In this document: positions 22,657 to 64,000 of the stretch, in pieces
Layout: every line of letters begins with the position of its first letter
Position numbering within the stretch: position 1 is the stretch's first letter
From: Apostichopus japonicus
Taxonomy: Eukaryota > Echinodermata > Holothuroidea > Aspidochirotida > Stichopodidae
NCBI RefSeq assembly: GCF_037975245.1
Contig: NC_092573.1
Coordinates: 20,994,265 to 21,058,264 of the forward strand
Direction: 5' to 3'
Length of the DNA: 64,000 bases
Program-made: the position numbers and the translations under genes
The notes under the pieces: generated by a model
The model's database searches: none
What the model was told of the DNA's origin: nothing
The model's input: the letters and a program-made list of their open reading frames with translations, nothing else

Positions 22657-25600
22657 GTGAGTTACAGATCTTTCAAGGGTGAGTGGGGGGGGGGGGAGGG
22701 GGGGGTGGGGGGTTTGGATGGAAGGTACGAAGATTGGGCAAGGGTGGGTTATATTGTAGGCATGGAGTCACTGCAGCCATACCGAAATAGACAGGGAACA
22801 GTGACCAGTCTTTAATGTAAAGTATACTCACAAATGCAGGGAAAGTCCATCACTGTCATGCTAGAGCTACTGTACTGTATTGATATATATATACATGTAT
22901 GCGTCTTCTCAGATGCCAATATCACCATCGAAGATGTGAAAGGGGGATTTCACCTGGCTAAGGACACTACTATGCAATGTGTAACAGACAACCCAAACAC
23001 AAGTTTGACTTGGAGTAAAAATGGCGAAGACTTAGCGAAAGGGAAAAATGACCTGAACGGCGATGGAGTGGATGATCTAGAGGTCAACGATCAAAATCAG
23101 ATCGTCCTGCTCTCTGCTGATCCAGTCCTTGCCGGAGACTACACCTGCACCGTAGACCTGGGCTCAACAACGAAATCAGTATCGAAGACCATTGCTGGTA
23201 ATGTATATAAACACATAGTCTGCGATGTATCAAAGACCCATATCATCAGTTGTTAGTCTGCTAAAGGCTGGAAAAAATGAAAGGGAGGTAGTGTTTTGAT
23301 TGCAGTTATAAACTGACAGAAAGTTCCATAATTATGCGAAGATGCATCGTTTTACTGTAGGTTATTGGGATCCAAGTAAACACATCTGCGATGTATCAAA
23401 GACCCATGACTCATGTTAGTCTCATGTGAGACTCATGTTAGTCTGCTAAAGGCTGGGAAAATGAAAGGGAGGTAGTGTTTTGATTGCAGTTATAAACTGA
23501 CAGAAAGTTCCATAATTATGTGAAAGATGCATCGTTTTACTGTAGGTTATTGGGATCCAAGTATACACATCTGCGATGTATCAAAGACCCATGACTCATG
23601 TTAGTCTCATGTTAGACTCATGTTAGTCTGCTAAAGGCTGGAAAAAATGAAAGGGAGGTAGTGTTTTGATTGCAGTTATAAACTGACTGAAAGTTCCATA
23701 ATTATGTGAAGGAGCAATGTTTCACTGTAGGTTATTGGGATCCAAGTATACACATCTGCGATGTATCAAAGACCCATGACTCATGTTAGTCTCATGTTAG
23801 ACTCATGTTAGTCTGCTAAAGGCTTGAAAAAATGAAAGGGAGGTAGTGTTTTGATTGCAGTTATAAACTGACAGAAAGTTCCATAGTTATGTGAAGATGC
23901 ATCATATTACTGTAGGTTATTGGGATCCAAGTATACTAATATTTAAAACTATGTATTAACATTTACAAGGAGATACTACGAGTTGTGGTGATATTCCTGG
24001 GTTAATATTCTGTCAATATATTCAAGTTGTTTCTGTCTATCGATTATTTGTTTGAATTCTCTGACAGTGGGGGGGGGAAGGGAAAGAGGGGTTGGCCGGG
24101 AACTAGTTACGAATATTTATGTGTGTTGAATGCTACTAGAAGCATCAGTTAGAACGGATGAATCAGCCTAACTGCATAACTTAAGGATGTATGAACCACA
24201 CATTGGACCTATCCAATGTGTATTTAGTAATTGTGTGTATGTATAGGGAGCTGTACATAGCAAGCCATGCTGGAAGGCTGGAATCAGTTTTCAAGCACCC
24301 TCAAGAGTCACGTAAAGAACAATGTACATTATGACAGTATCATTGAAGAATACACACTGAAGCAGGAATGTTGGAAGATAAGAATAATAATTGAATGGCT
24401 CACCAGCACTTGTAAAATTATGGGTTGTCCTTTAACAGGTGGATAAAGATTGGCCATTCCGTGGAGATTTTCAGCCCAAAAAAAAAGAAGAAAAGAACTG
24501 CAAAAGCGTAAAACCATATCAATAAGTCAGATTTCCATATTATTTATTCCTTGTTACCCGTTCAATTTTGCGACCTTCCGTCCCGAAAACACAGCTCCAC
24601 TTAGTATTGCAGATGACGGCCCTGTCGCCGTAATTTCTAGTATCAGAAAATTATGCAAACTTTGTCCTCTCGTTCGAACTCGTCTTTTTAATTTCAAATC
24701 CGCAGGAGACCTAATCGTCTACGCGCAAAAGTCCATCAAGGTGAGCGAGGGAGAAGACGGCAGCATGGAGTGCCGGGCCACCTCCGTACCCGCCGCTACG
24801 ATCACATGGTTTGTGAACGGGACCAAGGTAACATCCGGCGAAAAGTACGAAGTAAAGACGAAAGATGCGCCAGCAGAGCCGGATATGGTGATCGGTACTC
24901 TGACAGTGATGGACGTCTCCCTGGACGATGGCAGACCCGTCAACTACACCTGCTCTGCCACCAACGGGGTGTACACCGAAGAGGAAGTGGTCATTCTCAG
25001 AATAAGAGGTGGGTTGTGATGTTTCTGCGTCATTTTGGGTTGCATCTGGCCGAAATTGTGACTTAAAAAAAATCCCTTCAGTAGAACAGCCTCTGTGTGT
25101 TCACTTTGTCATCTCCCCACGACCTCAGCACTTATACTCCGCCATAGTAATAGTGAACTGGTAACGTCTCTAATACTGTGCACCCTCGAGGATGGGGGGT
25201 CGACACCCGTCAATAAGGGGTTAATCAACGGTCAAGCGTGCGTTACTCACAGGATTAATGCACGATCGGGGGATAATGCATCCAGCGATAGCATTAACAC
25301 CCGGAGTGCATTAATCCTGTGAGTAACGCACGCTAGACCGTTGATTAACCCCATTCATTCATACACTACCATTTGTGTGGGGGGAAAGTCATAAAACAAA
25401 ATATTTTTGGTTACATATAACCAAAGATTTTTTAAAGTGATGCCCCGTAATTTTACCGTGCATTACTCACAGGATTAACCACAGTCAGCTGACCTGAATG
25501 GACCAATAGGATTTAGGAATCTTTACTAAGTATGAATGAACGACCCTTCCTTCTCATGAATTCTACGACCCAAAGTGCCTAGAAGTAGTTAATAAGAAGG

Positions 25601-28319: not shown

Positions 28320-28626
28320 AGCGATAGATTGCGATAACCGTAGACTCCGTTAGACGGATAACCGTATACCGCGATACGGTAAACTGATAACCACATACTG
28401 TGATACAGTAACCTATATCCGTATACCGGGATACGGTAACCGATAACCGTATACTGTGATACGGTAACCATATACTAATCCCATAACTGTAGACTGTGAT
28501 AACGGTATACTGCGATGCAGTAACCGATAACCGTATATCGCGATACGGTAACCGATAACCGTATACCGCGGTACGGTAACCTGTATACTAATTCCATAAC
28601 CGTAGACTGCGATAACCGTAGATAAC
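28320..28626. repeat. Array of about 28-bp units, each an imperfect palindrome
   Basis: Around ten units based on GATAACCGTATACCGCG followed by ATACGGTAACC. Within each unit CCGTAT pairs with ATACGG around a CCGC core, so each unit can fold as a small hairpin or offer a dyad-symmetric site. Confidence 0.85.
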
Positions 28627-39283: not shown

Positions 39284-41584
39284 GAGCGTACGTTGTATGA
39301 TGGAACCCCAGACTACGAGCCAATACCACGATGTTCTTATTACATGGCGATCATCCTACATGAACCGTTGCGATGGTCGTTCGAAGTGTCTGTTACAGTG
39401 ACTACTGTATACACGTAACACGAACAAAGCACTAAGATGTCGCTTTGTTTGTAATGTCACAATGAAGATATTGTAGCCATCCTGTTTGTTTCATTCTTCC
39501 CTTTTCAGATCGACTCAACGCGCGCGCAAACTTGTGTAGTATGACTCTGTACTGACTATCGTTCTGGACGATGAAAGGAAATACCATGCGTGATGCGCGC
39601 GCCTATAATTATCAGTGTGTCTACATCATAGAAATTGATTAGTGGTCTACATAATGAATGATACGATGTTATAGCGTAATTGCATGACTGTACGCACGAA
39701 AACTAACCAATGCAAATTCCTGTCTGTTTGCTCTGTATTTCGTACGCACTACGCTTGCTAAGTTACCATAGGCGACGCTTTGTATATTGCATGAGTAAAT
39801 CTGAGGTACAGATATCTTGGGTGAAACACAACGATACCAACGTATGTATGCACGAGGTGAACATTGAACAAATTTTGTTGATGCGTCGCAAAGTTAACGT
39901 GTGGATTGTTTCTGTTGCGCGACGCACACGCTAGTTGCGTAAGGGAAGCATTATTGTGCTAACAAAATACATGAAATAGGTCCACATAACCCTGGTCCTG
40001 ACCAGGTGGACAAGTTAGGTTAACGGGAAATATTTATTATCAAGTTAGTTTATGTTGTTATGGTGTCCATATTGTGGGTTTGTTTGAGCTAAATTCTATT
40101 TTAGCTATGCGTTGATGTACTATTTTCCTTTTTCAATTTCTCTATCTCATTAATTGGAAGGAAACTACGAACTAAAATTACAAATATATTCATGAAATTG
40201 ACAGACAGTTCACAATCTTAAATAGTGTTTAAATTTGATGACTTGCAGCGTAAAAAGATGGCAATTCGTTTTGAATGCAGTACAGCCTCACATTAATACC
40301 GCGCTGCTTGCAACTTTGAAAACCGTTTTGAATTCATAACTGAACGTAGGTTATTCAAATATTCAAAGAACACACTTGATCACATACACACTTAATCATA
40401 TATATAAACGAACTTATTGTGACCTCATTAACACCAAAAGAAAAACACTGCAAGTCCTTTTTTTTTCTTTTTCTTTTAATTAGTTCATTTTAAGTTCGTA
40501 ATAAACAACGACTGCATAGAGACATTTCATTTGCATATCATTTGCATAATATTATCATAAATCGATGAAAGGAGGTTTAGCAAAACAAGTTTGCAGAAAT
40601 ATAGGTATTGCTAACAATGAGTGTCCGTGATAAAAAAAAATTAACATTTCAAAGGGCATTTATTAAAACGTTAATTTAAGAGCAGCTGAACGTTACTTAA
40701 CTTACAAAAAATTGCCACCAGAAAGAAAGGGCGAAAAAGGAAAAGAAAAACGAAGAAGATAACAAGAAAGAAAAAGGAAAATCAGAGCAAAGTAGCACAA
40801 AGCATAACGAAATGAAGTAGCCTGCACATATTCGAAAGGCGGCTTGAAAACACAGAGTGGAGAAATTAACAGACTAACAAAGTCGGCTGTGTCAAATACG
40901 CGTACGGCTAAAATTGCCTTTGCAATCAGTATAAAATCACATACGATACATATTTAACCAGAAATTTCAATCAGGCGTATAACAATAACTTCCTCTTGAA
41001 AAGAAAGTTCTTTTTCTTGAACATTTACGTATAAATAGTGGAAATTGTAAATAACGTCTTAAGTTCACATTGTGTTAAAATGGGTCCAACAGCTTCTAGA
41101 CTCCGTGCAACCAGAGGCTTCATTGAGCTAGTCCAAATATCATCAACTAAAACGGGTCCGACTATTACGCCATGGTTCATAATGAGAAGTCGTTACAATA
41201 GTATGTAAAATAATGCCGGTTTTATGGTGGTTAAACCAAGCCGCACGCATAATCGTTGGGATTTCTCATATTCAGAGATAGACTGGTTCATTCAGCCGTT
41301 TCGTTGAACAGTATTTCAAGAGCTAAGAAAACGAACTTCCCATTGTATTCATACATTATATCAAATTGAAAACCAGCAGTCTTTAGCAAAAATCCGTCTA
41401 AATAATAAAACAGTTTTATTACCCTGAGAAATTTAATTTTTCTTTGTTTTTATCAATTTTGCTATCCCGCAGTTGATGGATTTACATAATCTCGCCATGT
41501 ATTGATATAATTACAGATTACAAATAATACCGTATTTGTTCATCGTGAATGATAGTACCAATATAGTATCTGACTCGGATATAT
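39284..41584. other. Intergenic, HCN promoter side to LMO2 3' flank
   Basis: No supported gene. GC-rich CGCGCG patches near 39518-39525 and 39595-39602 lie upstream of the HCN start and may mark its promoter. The rest is AT-rich and unremarkable; small open frames here look random. Confidence 0.5.
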
Positions 41585-42345
41585 TTCATACCGCGGTGTT
41601 TGCAGTTAACTAGTTGGCAATTTGTCATACCAAGATACCATCTCTTCCTTCTTAATCATATACTGTTTGACTTAAACTAGATACTCATGCCGTAGTGCAC
41701 TGAGGCCGCTGGAGGTTCCACTTGTCATTACAAATCTGTCTTCCATGTACTAGTATAGCCTCCGACACGATCCCTATGTTCCATACCGCGATGTATCAGG
41801 TGTATAGGAATTACTGGCACTTTTCTTCAAACACCATGTGTTACAACCAATAACGATCAAAGGGTAACCTTCACATGTAATCGTTTCGTGCAAATAATAC
41901 TTGCCTCCAACAGTGGTAACAATACCTCATGTTCATACCGCGGTATATCGAGATCGCTGACAGTCTTTATTATACTTCTTTGTATTTGCTTATTCAGTGG
42001 CACGTGATCCTCTTTATAAACTCATTGTAGCTTGTTAATGATATATGTGCAACCGATACTTCATACCGCGATGCAATGAAAATCGCTGACAATTTTGATA
42101 TTCAGTTTGACGACGCCTTGTCGGTATATCAGCCTGTGATCCTAACCATATACAAATCGCTGTTCCTTGTAAATGATATACATGTCTCCGACATGCAACA
42201 GATACCTTCATACCGCGGTGCAATGAAAATCGCTAGAGGAGTTTGATATACCGTTTCGGTTAACCACTCGTCGATATCGGTACGTGGTCTTCACATATGA
42301 TCTTTGTTCCTTGTAAATGGTATTTGTCTCCAACGCAAAAGTGTT
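41585..42345 (-). repeat. Degenerate tandem copies of the LMO2 last coding segment in its 3' flank
   Basis: A marker TTCATACCGCG (plus strand) recurs at 41585, 41932, 42060 and 42207 and as TTCCATACCGCG at 41779, giving periods of roughly 130-190 bp. Between markers, minus-strand segments resemble the LIM2 end coding [17 protein letters not shown]: one keeps ATCATTTACAAGGAACA exactly, another GAGGATCACGTGCC, another TGTTGGAGGCAAGTATTA with ACATGTGAAGG. About five decayed copies follow the intact coding one. Confidence 0.75.
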
Positions 42346-42470
42346 TCTCGCACTCTGAACACTTAAAACATTCCAAGTGATAAACTTGATCAGCTGTCGT
42401 GTTCATAACGAGTTCATAGGCAGGAATCTCCCGTTGGCAAGCTGTACAAATACCACTTGGAACAAACAGC
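42260..42470 (-). CDS. LMO2: LMO2 exon 3: LIM2 and C-terminus
   Basis: Acceptor TTCAATGCAG, 211 bp. Encodes [20 protein letters not shown] to [20 protein letters not shown] and a short VPISTSG tail, with TAA at 42260-42262. Confidence 0.96.
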
Positions 42471-45400
42471 CTGCATTGAAGATAGATAGAACAATGATGT
42501 AACTTTATCATGATAATTGGCTGCTATCATTATAATTAAGTACTAATTAGACGGTAATTTATTCATCCATACTGTATAGATTCATTTCGTTCCTTCATTA
42601 CCATTAATTCACTGCCATTAATCAAAACCACTAATTCATCCGTTAACTCTTTCATTCATTCATTCATCATAAATACATGAATTCATTGACCAATATACTT
42701 TTGTTTAGGCAGTTATATGGATCATAGTAAACGCAATGATTTTTCGTGAGAGCTTTCAGTTTTGTTTTCGAGATATTCGCTTCTAAAACGTGTCCAAATG
42801 CATTGTATTCATTTCACAAGAAATACAACCAAGTCGAGCTGAATCGTGCCCTTACATGTTAATACTTGCACAACGAACACATTGTCCAAAATTAATTTTT
42901 AATAAGACTGACTTTTTATGGCTTATGTTTTTTCGAAAGCAAAACGAAGAAAGACAATAATATTATAACTGTGATTTGTACTTGAACTGTGTTTGCCACA
43001 TTTCTAAAATTGATATATATCATCCTTAAATATTTGTCTCCCTTTTACAAAATTATGTGAACAGAAATAAATGTCTTGGATAGGGAAAAAGTGGGATGAA
43101 AAACTGAACAACATTCCTAAAATTATTAGCAATTAAAGTTTCATAATCCGAGACTTTTTTTCAAACTAATGTTGAACTACAAACTCCAACTGCCATCTTG
43201 ATTAGATCAATAGCCTTGGTGAAGGATTTATGAAGTCCGAACGTAACGAATTGTCGTTTAAAAGTACTTGTATGACCTAAGACATGCGTTAATGATCTCT
43301 CTTTCAGGTCAATTTTGAAAGTGTACGCATGGAATGGCCAATGCTGACCTAGTCATTTACATAATAATCAGTCAAATAACTGTGGCTTCGTGCACTTGAA
43401 AATTAATTTTAATGATTCTTTTTTGTCTAGATAATAGTTTTTTTTAACTTACTAAATTCAACAAAAATCGCACCTACTTTTGAAGGTAATGGATGCCATC
43501 ACTATGGTTCTCTTTCAAAAATTTATAATTTTATACTGAGAACTACATTCATATCACGACGTAAGTGTCGGGATATATTCGGATGATGACGTCATAAAGG
43601 CGCTTCAAATGTTTGCACTTCAAGTAAAAAGTACAGTTTCTTGATTTGTTTTTTCCTTTCTGATTTCTGTCAGTTTTATTTCTTCATAGATTATTATTAG
43701 TTTTACGTGTTGGCGGGATGGATAGAAGTAGAAAATGCGGAATTTAAAAAATAATTCCATAAATAATACATAAAGTAATTTTATACTAGTTGGTCAGATG
43801 GCTACAAAATGACAAAGACAATGGCCTCCACCAAGTTTCAACATGGAATTTCATTCGCAGAGGTGGATGGATTTACGTACTCAATATGAAGTTTAATCAA
43901 GCTGCATTTTTTGGGGAGATATTTTGTTTTCAACTTTAGAAGGGGCATTACATACACTCATAGGCACATTACACACACCACATACCGTTTACGCATACTG
44001 TACAGTGTGCACACGGCATCATGATCGCAAAGTTTCCTTTTGCGTTCGGAATAACATACACAACCCCAGACTTCTCAAACAATGAATGAAAATCATCATA
44101 GCGAAGAACAGAAAAGTAGGCCCCTAAGTCATCTTTCTAGTGTAAAATAGAGGGCGCAGTCTGTTTTAAACTTATACATACCTCAGATAATCTCTCTTAC
44201 AAAGCTTACGCCCAAGTTTGGTATAAAGGTGGCAATCGACCTCTCCAAGCCGACATTGACAAAGGTCACATGAAAGACAGTCCTCGTGCCAGTATTTCTC
44301 CATGGCTCTCAAGAAATAACGATCTCGAATCCACTGTTTACACCCCTGGCACTCCAACATGGACGGGTGGACATTGAGTACCTCGTTGACCGTCTCCCTG
44401 GGATAGAGAAGGAGTTATGACGTCATACATAAGATAAACGCCGAAGCCATTCTTACAATGTTGCATATTCTTCAAAGGGCACATTCGAAAAAAAGTGTGT
44501 TTATAAAGTAAAACTCGAGGGGCGTAACAAGGTCGGAAAAGACGGGTTGAGCTGGTGTATGTGAACGGCGGGTGGGGGGGGGGGGCGGAGCTGGAAGTTT
44601 GGGAACTCCCCGAACTGACTTACAATCGCATATGCAGGTGTATAGAGTAACATAGCTAAATTTGCCTGGTAGGGAAAAGTAAATCTGTGATAGATGTCTG
44701 TGATTTGAATAAAAGTTAATGCGCAAGGTTCAAATTTGTCATGTTAAAACGCACAATGTAGCTTCCGCAATTCCACCTCAGGTGACCAAGTGATGATGAA
44801 CAAGTGTCCCCGAAAATGTCCCCGATTCGTCAAAATGTTCAGGAATTTCGAAAATGTCCCACATTATTAGTAAAATAATTGTAAAAACAAAATTTAGTCA
44901 AGTGTGCAGTCGCAGAACGGAACTAACCAGTATTTCAGGTGGGCCAGTGTAAAGTGGAATATGCTAGATTGATCTAGCCTAGCACTCTTTCGTAAAGTAA
45001 GTAAATTTCATCTAAGAAAAGGCTACATTTTTTAAAATAATTTTGATTTAAAAAGTGCTTCTAAGTATCACCATTTTACATCTAAGCACCTTAGGCACTT
45101 GAAAATTTTCCAAAGGGGAGGGGGACCCCCCCTTAGACCCCTCCCCCATAACAGTCACGCAATAAATGTCCCTGATTCCAGTCAGGCAAATAAGTGAGAA
45201 TGACATAGGCTCGTCGAATGTGCAGCGATTCGCAAAGCTACCGCATAAACTCGAGTACTCGGTCTAGTTCGTTGTTCACTAGATGGAGTACGCAGTGAGG
45301 TAGTACTTATTACATGATTTCCTTCCAAATTGATTACGCGGGCTGCCACCATTCGGAGAGAATTATCGTCAGAAATGGGAGCCCTGTTGATGTTAAATTG

Positions 45401-62500: not shown

Positions 62501-64000
62501 CTTGAATATATCTACTTCTCTCTTCCAGTATCACCAGCCGACTCAGCTGCTCTGAAATAAGATACACGAGGATTTTTTTTTATTTTTCACTTCGCAGATA
62601 CGAACAACTGATGCGGGACGAACTTGTCATCTCTCAGGAGGTCGCAGAGTTGGACAAACATTTTGACCTTTGGTCTCAACTACCACCGGTCACCATTCCA
62701 GAAGATAAACCAGCCAAGAAGACCGCAATTAAAAACGGGAAGAAGAGCATCTTAGCAGACATGCCGCCAGAAGTTGCTGCTTTCGAGGTAAGATTTACAT
62801 ATTTTTAAACTTGGCAAACTTCATGGCTTGTCAAAGTTGTAAAGCCGTGTCTAACCTAAATCAAGGTCTTGGTGATAAACTGTGATATTTCTTCGACATT
62901 TGTTGATTTGGCTGTGTAAGTGGAGATCTTCGGAGGTAGACTATGACATGAACGGAGGAGACAAGTAAACAGACAGGTGAGAGAGACGAAAAGAGGAGAG
63001 CAATATATTGACTAGAGTAGTCGCCGTTGTATAACAGAAGATTCTGACAAATCCTTCTCGATATTTGCCTATCTAGTTTTGTCTTTACAAAGTAGCAGAA
63101 CCTGTAAAATATTAAACGAAGTTGACAGAAAACGAGTAAAAAGAAATTTTGGCTAGAGCAGGATTTGATCAAGTTTGTTTATTGGAATGAGGTGTTTAGA
63201 TCTCATAATGGTCGAAGGGTTAATTCTTTCAAAATTTGTTTACAATGTTTCTTCGACCTGTTTCTTCTAAGTAATTTCCTCGAGCTATCACAGTTTTTCA
63301 AAAACAGAGAAATAATTTGTCTGATTACTTTAACAGGGCTGTCAGTTTCTTGTCTTCTCTTGCAGCGGTTCCTGCAGCAGACCGGAGGCCATCGAGGAGG
63401 ATGGGATGAATACGACCACGGAACGTTCATGAGAATCAGAAACAAACATAAGGTAATAAACATACGACCACGGAACGTTCATGAGAATCAGAAACAAACA
63501 TAAGGTAATAAACATTCGACCACGGAACGTTCATGAGAATCAGAAACAAACATAAGGTAATAAACATACGACCACGGAACGTTCATGAGAATCAGAAACA
63601 AACATAAGGTAATAAACATACGACCACGGAACGTTCATGAGAATCAGAAACAAACATAAGGTAATAAACATACGACCACGGAACGTTCATGAGAATCAGA
63701 AACAAACATAAGGTAATAAACATACGACCACGGAACGTTCATGAGAATCAGAAACAAACATAAGGTAATAGACATAACGATAATGTCTATTACGACATCT
63801 ATTACGACGTCTATTACGTCATCACGACATCACGAGAAACGCGTTATTCATTCTCATAATTCAATTCAATTATTACATTCTCAAATGTACACAAAAGTCA
63901 TCACAGATGTTTGGTATGGACACTAGTAAGAGCAAAGTTTTCTTTTTATGTAGCTATTTACCAGGTAAACATCAAGATCATGTCCCCGATGTATCAGAAA
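59484..64000 (+). CDS. CCDC112: CCDC112 coiled-coil protein (3' end beyond window)
   Basis: Exons 59484-59531, 59988-60130, 60614-60735, 61409-61498, 62301-62376, 62598-62787 and 63366-63452 join in phase to 252 residues; an eighth begins about 63954. An in-frame TAG at 59472 supports the ATG. Blocks match the human CCDC112 sequence I recall: EKGTHLYGKRNDFRKDY, LQNHLTKLRH..QNVKPTPEF, FLEKLKELMESIEASLNNFK, IYEQLMRDEL, FLQQTGGHRGGWDEYDHGTF and RIRNKHK, then LPGKHQD. CCDC112 is a coiled-coil protein of the centrosome and ciliary base. The link between exons 7 and 8 does not fit in phase, and a segment present in human (about GKPTFMEEVLE) was not found, so the model is incomplete there. Confidence 0.93.
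59988..60130 (+). CDS. CCDC112: CCDC112 exon 2
   Basis: Acceptor TTATTTACAG, donor GTATGA, 143 bp, phase 0 to 2. Encodes VPKTESVSSNGDNMTGRSDT, then SPEQVKKIELLREIDQLEK. Confidence 0.85.
60614..60735 (+). CDS. CCDC112: CCDC112 exon 3
   Basis: Acceptor CTGCCTTCAG, donor GTAACC, 122 bp, phase 2 to 1. Encodes CAIEREKGTHLYGKRNDFRK and EEQEMKMVSDRKTE, aligned by eye with the human HSHFYNQKSDFR..SRKTE block. Confidence 0.9.
61409..61498 (+). CDS. CCDC112: CCDC112 exon 4
   Basis: Acceptor TTCTTCTCAG, donor GTAAGT, 90 bp, phase 1 to 1. Encodes SRLQNHLTKLRHQVDKFQYE and LQNVKPTPE. Confidence 0.94.
62301..62376 (+). CDS. CCDC112: CCDC112 exon 5
   Basis: Acceptor CACCTCAAAG, donor GTGAGT, 76 bp, phase 1 to 2. 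Encodes FLEKLKELMESIEASLNNFK and EQQKT, a heptad-like helix. Confidence 0.93.
62598..62787 (+). CDS. CCDC112: CCDC112 exon 6
   Basis: Acceptor CACTTCGCAG, donor GTAAGA, 190 bp, phase 2 to 0. Encodes IYEQLMRDELVISQEVAELD, a Lys/Pro-rich linker and ILADMPPEVAAFE. Confidence 0.94.
63366..63452 (+). CDS. CCDC112: CCDC112 exon 7
   Basis: Acceptor TTCTCTTGCAG, donor GTAATA at 63453, 87 bp, phase 0 to 0. Encodes RFLQQTGGHRGGWDEYDHGT and FMRIRNKHK. Its last 42 bases and donor are tandemly repeated downstream. Use of any later donor would run through VINIRPRNVHENQKQT to a stop, so the first donor must be used. Confidence 0.95.
63411..63770 (+). repeat. 52-bp tandem repeat made from an exon end plus splice donor
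   Basis: Donor-like GTAATA recurs at 63453, 63505, 63557, 63609, 63661, 63713 and 63765, exactly every 52 bp. Each unit is the last 42 bases of CCDC112 exon 7 plus 10 bases of intron. Copies are nearly identical, so the array is young or homogenised. No copy carries an acceptor. Confidence 0.97.
63954..64000 (+). CDS. CCDC112: CCDC112 exon 8 (partial, start uncertain)
   Basis: After acceptor TTTTTATGTAG one frame reads YLPGKHQDHVPDVSE, close to the human HLPGKTQDEV block. This start leaves a phase 2 requirement that exon 7 (phase 0) does not meet. A later acceptor at 63964 is the alternative. The exon continues past the window. Confidence 0.65.

Follow-up and report, generated by a model that had tools for sequence, protein, structure and literature searches.

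Decayed tandem copies of the LMO2 coding end behind its stop codon in Apostichopus japonicus

On the minus strand of a 64,000-nucleotide stretch of Apostichopus japonicus contig NC_092573.1 (assembly GCF_037975245.1, positions 20,994,265 to 21,058,264; hereafter the window, to which all coordinates refer), we identified an array in which the final 82 bases of the LMO2 coding sequence, including the stop codon, and 58 bases of the 3' flank are repeated head to tail (Table 1). An initial annotation had proposed that the end of the coding exon was tandemly duplicated into the 3' flank and then decayed, and the alignments, the shuffled controls and the codon-position pattern of the differences all agree with this proposal. 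We consider it very probable that this is a local minisatellite-type array, seeded by a duplication straddling the LMO2 stop codon, whose copies later decayed as non-coding DNA.

Table 1. Features of the LMO2 locus and of the array behind its stop codon (control counts refer to shuffles or window segments that reached the observed score; leave-one-out profiles were searched against the whole window)
Feature	Position	Strand	Evidence
LIM1-coding exon of LMO2 (3' part)	44182..44351	-	Pfam LIM 3e-13
Donor GTATGT of the LIM1 exon	starts 44181	-	sequence reading
Splice acceptor AG of the last LMO2 exon	42471-42472	-	sequence reading
Last coding exon of LMO2 (LIM2)	42260..42470	-	phmmer to LMO2 structures 1e-22, Pfam LIM 7.8e-12
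LMO2 stop TAA	42260-42262	-	sequence reading
U0, original unit: coding 42260-42341 (82) and 58 of flank with marker	42202..42341	-	self-alignment; leave-one-out E 9e-13
U1, first copy; YHLQGT bases retained	42056..42201	-	0/500 shuffles, 0/500 segments; leave-one-out E 3e-13
U2, second copy; EDHVP bases retained	41922..42055	-	0/500 shuffles, 0/500 segments; leave-one-out E 1e-5
U3, third copy; VGGKYYLHETITCEG	41770..41921	-	0/500 shuffles, 0/500 segments; E 0.001 vs exon, leave-one-out 1.6
U4, short, heavily decayed probable copy	41681..41769	-	8/500 shuffles, 2/500 segments
U5, short decayed probable copy, exact marker at its end	41580..41680	-	2/500 shuffles, 0/500 segments; leave-one-out E 0.066
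Marker CGCGGTATGAA of U0	42207..42217	-	exact
Marker of U1	42060..42070	-	exact
Marker of U2	41932..41942	-	exact
Marker of U3	41780..41790	-	one mismatch
Marker of U5	41585..41595	-	exact
AATAAA inside U2	starts 41971	-	sequence reading
AATAAA beyond the array end, candidate poly(A) signal	41415..41420	-	sequence reading
AATAAA further on	40664, 40038	-	sequence reading

The gene was recognised by its two LIM-coding exons. In phmmer searches against solved structures, LMO2/rhombotin-2 was the best match of the LIM2 exon (1e-22), with LMO4 weaker (8e-18), and the LIM1 exon (query 44181-44351) gave 1e-25 for LMO2 versus 2e-17 for LMO4. Both exons, which carry splice sites, are nearest to LMO2 among the solved structures and identify the gene as LMO2, an assignment that does not exclude LMO1 or LMO3, of which neither list contains a structure. 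The next recognised gene downstream, on the same strand and with its start near 39.3 kb, has an Ion_trans_N N-terminus (Pfam), and we take it to be an HCN-type channel.

Self-BLAST of 41200-42700 aligned 42341-42060 with 42201-41932 over 294 columns (68% identity, E 4e-26), so that the blocks do resemble the coding segment, a resemblance on whose absence the proposal would have fallen; the coding bases 42334-42289 also aligned with 41911-41869 in U3 (74%, E 0.001). Used as a query against the whole window, the 83 bases 42341-42259 recovered U1 (E 0.0017), U3 (0.021) and U2 (0.68) on the same strand, with no matches outside the array up to E 10. Wrap-around alignment was also used to score each copy against a profile built from units that precede it (U0 for U1; U0 and U0-U1 for U2; U0-U2 for U3; U0-U3 for the rest), with 500 dinucleotide shuffles and 500 other window segments as controls. 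Leave-one-out profiles clearly recovered U0, U1 and U2, while the recovery of U3 and U5 was weak and partial, and U4 and a further candidate, U6, were unrecovered. Judged from these alignments, U1-U3 are well supported as copies, and U4 and U5 are probable ones. Taken together, the U4-U6 stretch had a score reached by 0/500 shuffles and 0/500 segments; U6 itself (41579-41480) was rejected as a copy, since 166/500 shuffles match its score, as do 101/500 segments, although a weak self-BLAST alignment (E 0.007) spans the U5 marker into it. The next 430 bases (41050-41479) contain no further copies (272/500 shuffles and 223/500 segments reach their score), which places the end of the array where it had been put before.

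The units are direct repeats, head to tail at a single locus, and thus form a tandem array. The blocks resembling the LIM2 coding end had been described as 130-190 bp long; self-BLAST bears out the resemblance, whereas the lengths are in fact 89-152 bp, a spacing of 195 bp concealing two short units. The three peptides named in the same description were all found, one in each of the first three copies, that of U2 in a different frame. Since the marker sits in the original 3' flank, each copy consists of coding end plus flank. Pairwise identity between copies ranges from 37 to 78%, depending on the part of the unit, and in the flank it reaches 78% for U0-U1 and 70% for U0-U2, which, at invertebrate neutral rates, suggests an array age of some tens of millions of years. 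The region 41480-42341 is absent from the output of Tandem Repeats Finder because the copies are too decayed for the level of similarity that it calls, and for this reason we speak of a decayed array.

The exon is the source of the array, since the coding portion of the units is LIM2 sequence, with homology to the LMO2 of other animals. Differences between the exon and U1-U3 are distributed 6/12/19 over codon positions 1, 2 and 3, roughly the 1:1:2 expected with constraint on one side only; the third-position excess is limited to these three copies, and the short alignments of U4 (4/3/3) and U5 (4/1/2) were excluded from the total. At 14 coding sites, two or all three of U1-U3 have the same base and the exon has another. 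Half of these majority differences (7/14) lie at third positions and every one is synonymous, as are the two sites where U1, U2 and U3 are alike and differ from the exon (TAC/TAT and GAC/GAT); the other seven are non-synonymous, and we read them as changes common to the copies and not as changes of the exon. Changes private to one of the three copies are flat over codon positions (9/8/8). The whole pattern is that of an exon under constraint next to copies that decay as non-coding DNA and have the appearance of fossils.

We infer the following mechanism of duplication. A segment of about 140 bp across the LMO2 stop codon would have been duplicated in tandem, the first copy remaining attached to the upstream exon and retaining an intact stop codon, which would make extra copies behind the gene harmless. 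More copies would then have arisen by slippage or unequal exchange and decayed as non-coding DNA, the exon copy remaining under protein-coding constraint. This explanation requires no function for the array as a whole.

Decayed local arrays are a normal product of the sampled genome, in which tandem arrays are common. The sample of 313 kb, made up of 20 stretches of 10 kb, 17 loci of 3 kb picked by a match to the marker, and the window minus the LMO2 locus (62 kb), contained 28 abutting tandem arrays with a period of 60-350 bp, which cover 13.3 kb (4.3% of the sample); the minimum identity is below 75% in 11 of the 28. These 11 include the marker-bearing locus L037, which was rejected as an array, being mostly TA simple repeat with just two copies found. 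What distinguishes the LMO2 array, in kind an ordinary one, is that it runs across a stop codon; by arithmetic, arrays placed blindly would take in a few per cent of all stop codons. Other arrays were also observed in the window. One, with a 185-bp unit and copies about 95% alike (23208-23936, plus strand), starts about 10 bases into an intron that follows an immunoglobulin-like exon, whose end is near 23197; another, at 63410-63776 (52-bp unit, 99% matches, 7.1 copies by Tandem Repeats Finder), looks like a recent expansion. A further one, at 28325-28620, is made of palindrome-like units (CCGTATACCGCGATACGG) and has ATACCGCG in common with the LMO2 marker, an overlap that is probably a coincidence.

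This abundance of tandem arrays, and the presence of ATACCGCG at 28325-28620, are what could be expected if a mobile or satellite repeat family had been inserted behind LMO2, its similarity to the exon being incidental or captured. We regard such an origin as highly improbable: a whole-genome DNA search (671.6 Mb in 35 contigs, very common words being skipped) with 41580-42345 matched the LMO2 locus alone, and the unit profile found nothing else in the window better than E 6.5, so that neither search revealed the copies elsewhere that mark a dispersed transposable or satellite element. The single genomic locus and the LIM2 coding content of the repeated part largely refute this explanation. 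Even less credible, in our judgement, is a role of the copies in making variant LMO2 C-termini, whether as alternative last exons or through translation. The frame of U3 is coding-like, with a 3-base gap relative to the exon, but no frame of 41480-42259 is free of stop codons (11, 12 and 15 in the three), and the flat distribution of copy-specific changes also speaks against translation, as does the start of the unit, 129 bases inside the exon and downstream of the acceptor, owing to which the copies were without a splice acceptor from the beginning.

The AATAAA hexamers at 41971, 41420, 40664 and 40038 mean that the array may lie in the 3' UTR, and we infer from them that its inclusion in the LMO2 3' UTR is plausible. 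As RNA, the array folds no better than its shuffles (z +0.87; 17/20 shuffles at least as stable), and no Rfam family reached its gathering score anywhere in the window; neither result indicates a structured 3' UTR RNA element.

The marker CGCGGTATGAA had been described as ending every block. It does so exactly in four of the six units (U0, U1, U2 and U5), and the description was overstated for U3, with one change, and U4, with four. It is better conserved than the remainder of the unit: column permutations for eight choices of the copies and columns to include give P values of 0.0003-0.038. The marker coincides exactly with the best-conserved 11 columns in five of these choices, and in the remaining three the best window overlaps it; once the unsupported U6 enters, P rises to 0.22. 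A uniform pipeline was applied to 29 arrays (LMO2 and the 28 others), of which 18 with at least three copies were scored and 11 dropped for few copies; the smallest P was that of LMO2 (0.030, followed by 0.137), although four of the other 17 scored arrays were saturated and uninformative and LMO2, with five copies, exceeds most of them. An earlier run with other settings gave 0/3000 for LMO2 and 0.12 to 1 for eight other arrays, five being skipped.

These values are suggestive, not proof, of a short element under constraint in the marker, and they raise the question of whether the array is maintained as a multimerised cis element. According to this explanation, CGCGGTATGAA, which overlaps the palindrome ACCGCGGT in some units, would be bound by an RNA- or DNA-binding protein in the LMO2 3' UTR or in a downstream enhancer, and copy number would tune LMO2 or the neighbouring channel gene, which starts about 2.2 kb further on. 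In a related form, duplication of the gene end would have given rise to a homotypic cluster of CGCGGTATGAA, either within the LMO2 3' UTR or in the DNA downstream of it, and selection would have kept the motif as the coding-derived rest decayed; in such a cluster the marker may have been retained for tens of millions of years. We hold both forms to be unlikely, if less so than the two explanations set out above. In addition to the rank of the LMO2 marker among the scorable arrays and its coincidence or overlap with the best-conserved window in all eight choices, CpG observed/expected is 1.10 in the array (41580-42259), whereas 20 background stretches average 0.62, and a lone one-mismatch marker, CGCGGTATTAA, occurs on the same strand 1.3 kb beyond the array (40293-40303, minus strand). 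Against this, P is modest and depends on the copies included, the LMO2 copy number is above that of most control arrays, the marker was first chosen because it was conspicuous to a reader, U4 is without it, and the RNA fold is not unusual. Nor is the motif enriched: the extended motif within one mismatch has 29 sites genome-wide (3 in the array) versus 27 for the backwards control, and the 11-mer within one mismatch has 2 sites in 200 kb of background versus a mean of 1.65 for shuffled 11-mers, counts on which we rejected the marker as a dispersed or enriched motif. Exact matches to the extended motif are two, both in the LMO2 array, and the 11-mer also appears elsewhere in the same genome-wide list. 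Known binding motifs of the RUNX type and the CGCG box may resemble CGCGGT or CCGCGG, though in part only. Retention of the marker could also be explained by chance, by local gene conversion or by nearness to the duplication junction.

The array, as a probable product of local stop-straddling duplication and decay, has likenesses to known systems. LMO2 (rhombotin-2) is a LIM-only gene, which both LIM exons match here, and the decayed array behind the stop is a feature of this locus. Partial tandem gene duplication of a terminal exon, followed by pseudogenisation, is a known concept, in which a coding fragment is likewise duplicated in tandem and decays as non-coding DNA; in contrast, the LMO2 unit has only 82 coding bases, is without a splice site and is repeated several times in register with flank. 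The human segmental-duplication gene minisatellites treated in PMC2812944 are also head to tail within a gene, with units of tens to hundreds of bases; the variable repeats counted there fall within coding sequence, UTRs or non-coding RNA, and the coding ones have units of up to 228 bp (PMC2812944, Table 2). Unlike these, the LMO2 copies are old, their unit spans the stop, and coding sequence has been carried into the 3' flank; in the main text of that article the terms 'stop codon' and 'last exon' have 0 occurrences. Titles and the beginnings of abstracts yielded no direct precedent for tandem copies of a coding end and stop codon in a 3' UTR, which is not proof of absence.

The LMO2 locus shows, in one genome, purifying selection on an exon beside free decay of its copies, which as internal fossils preserve apparent older codon states of LMO2. 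It also shows how 3' flanks can gain sequence that looks protein-coding but is not, a pitfall for gene prediction. If the marker were functional, a regulatory cluster would have been made here by duplicating a coding end.
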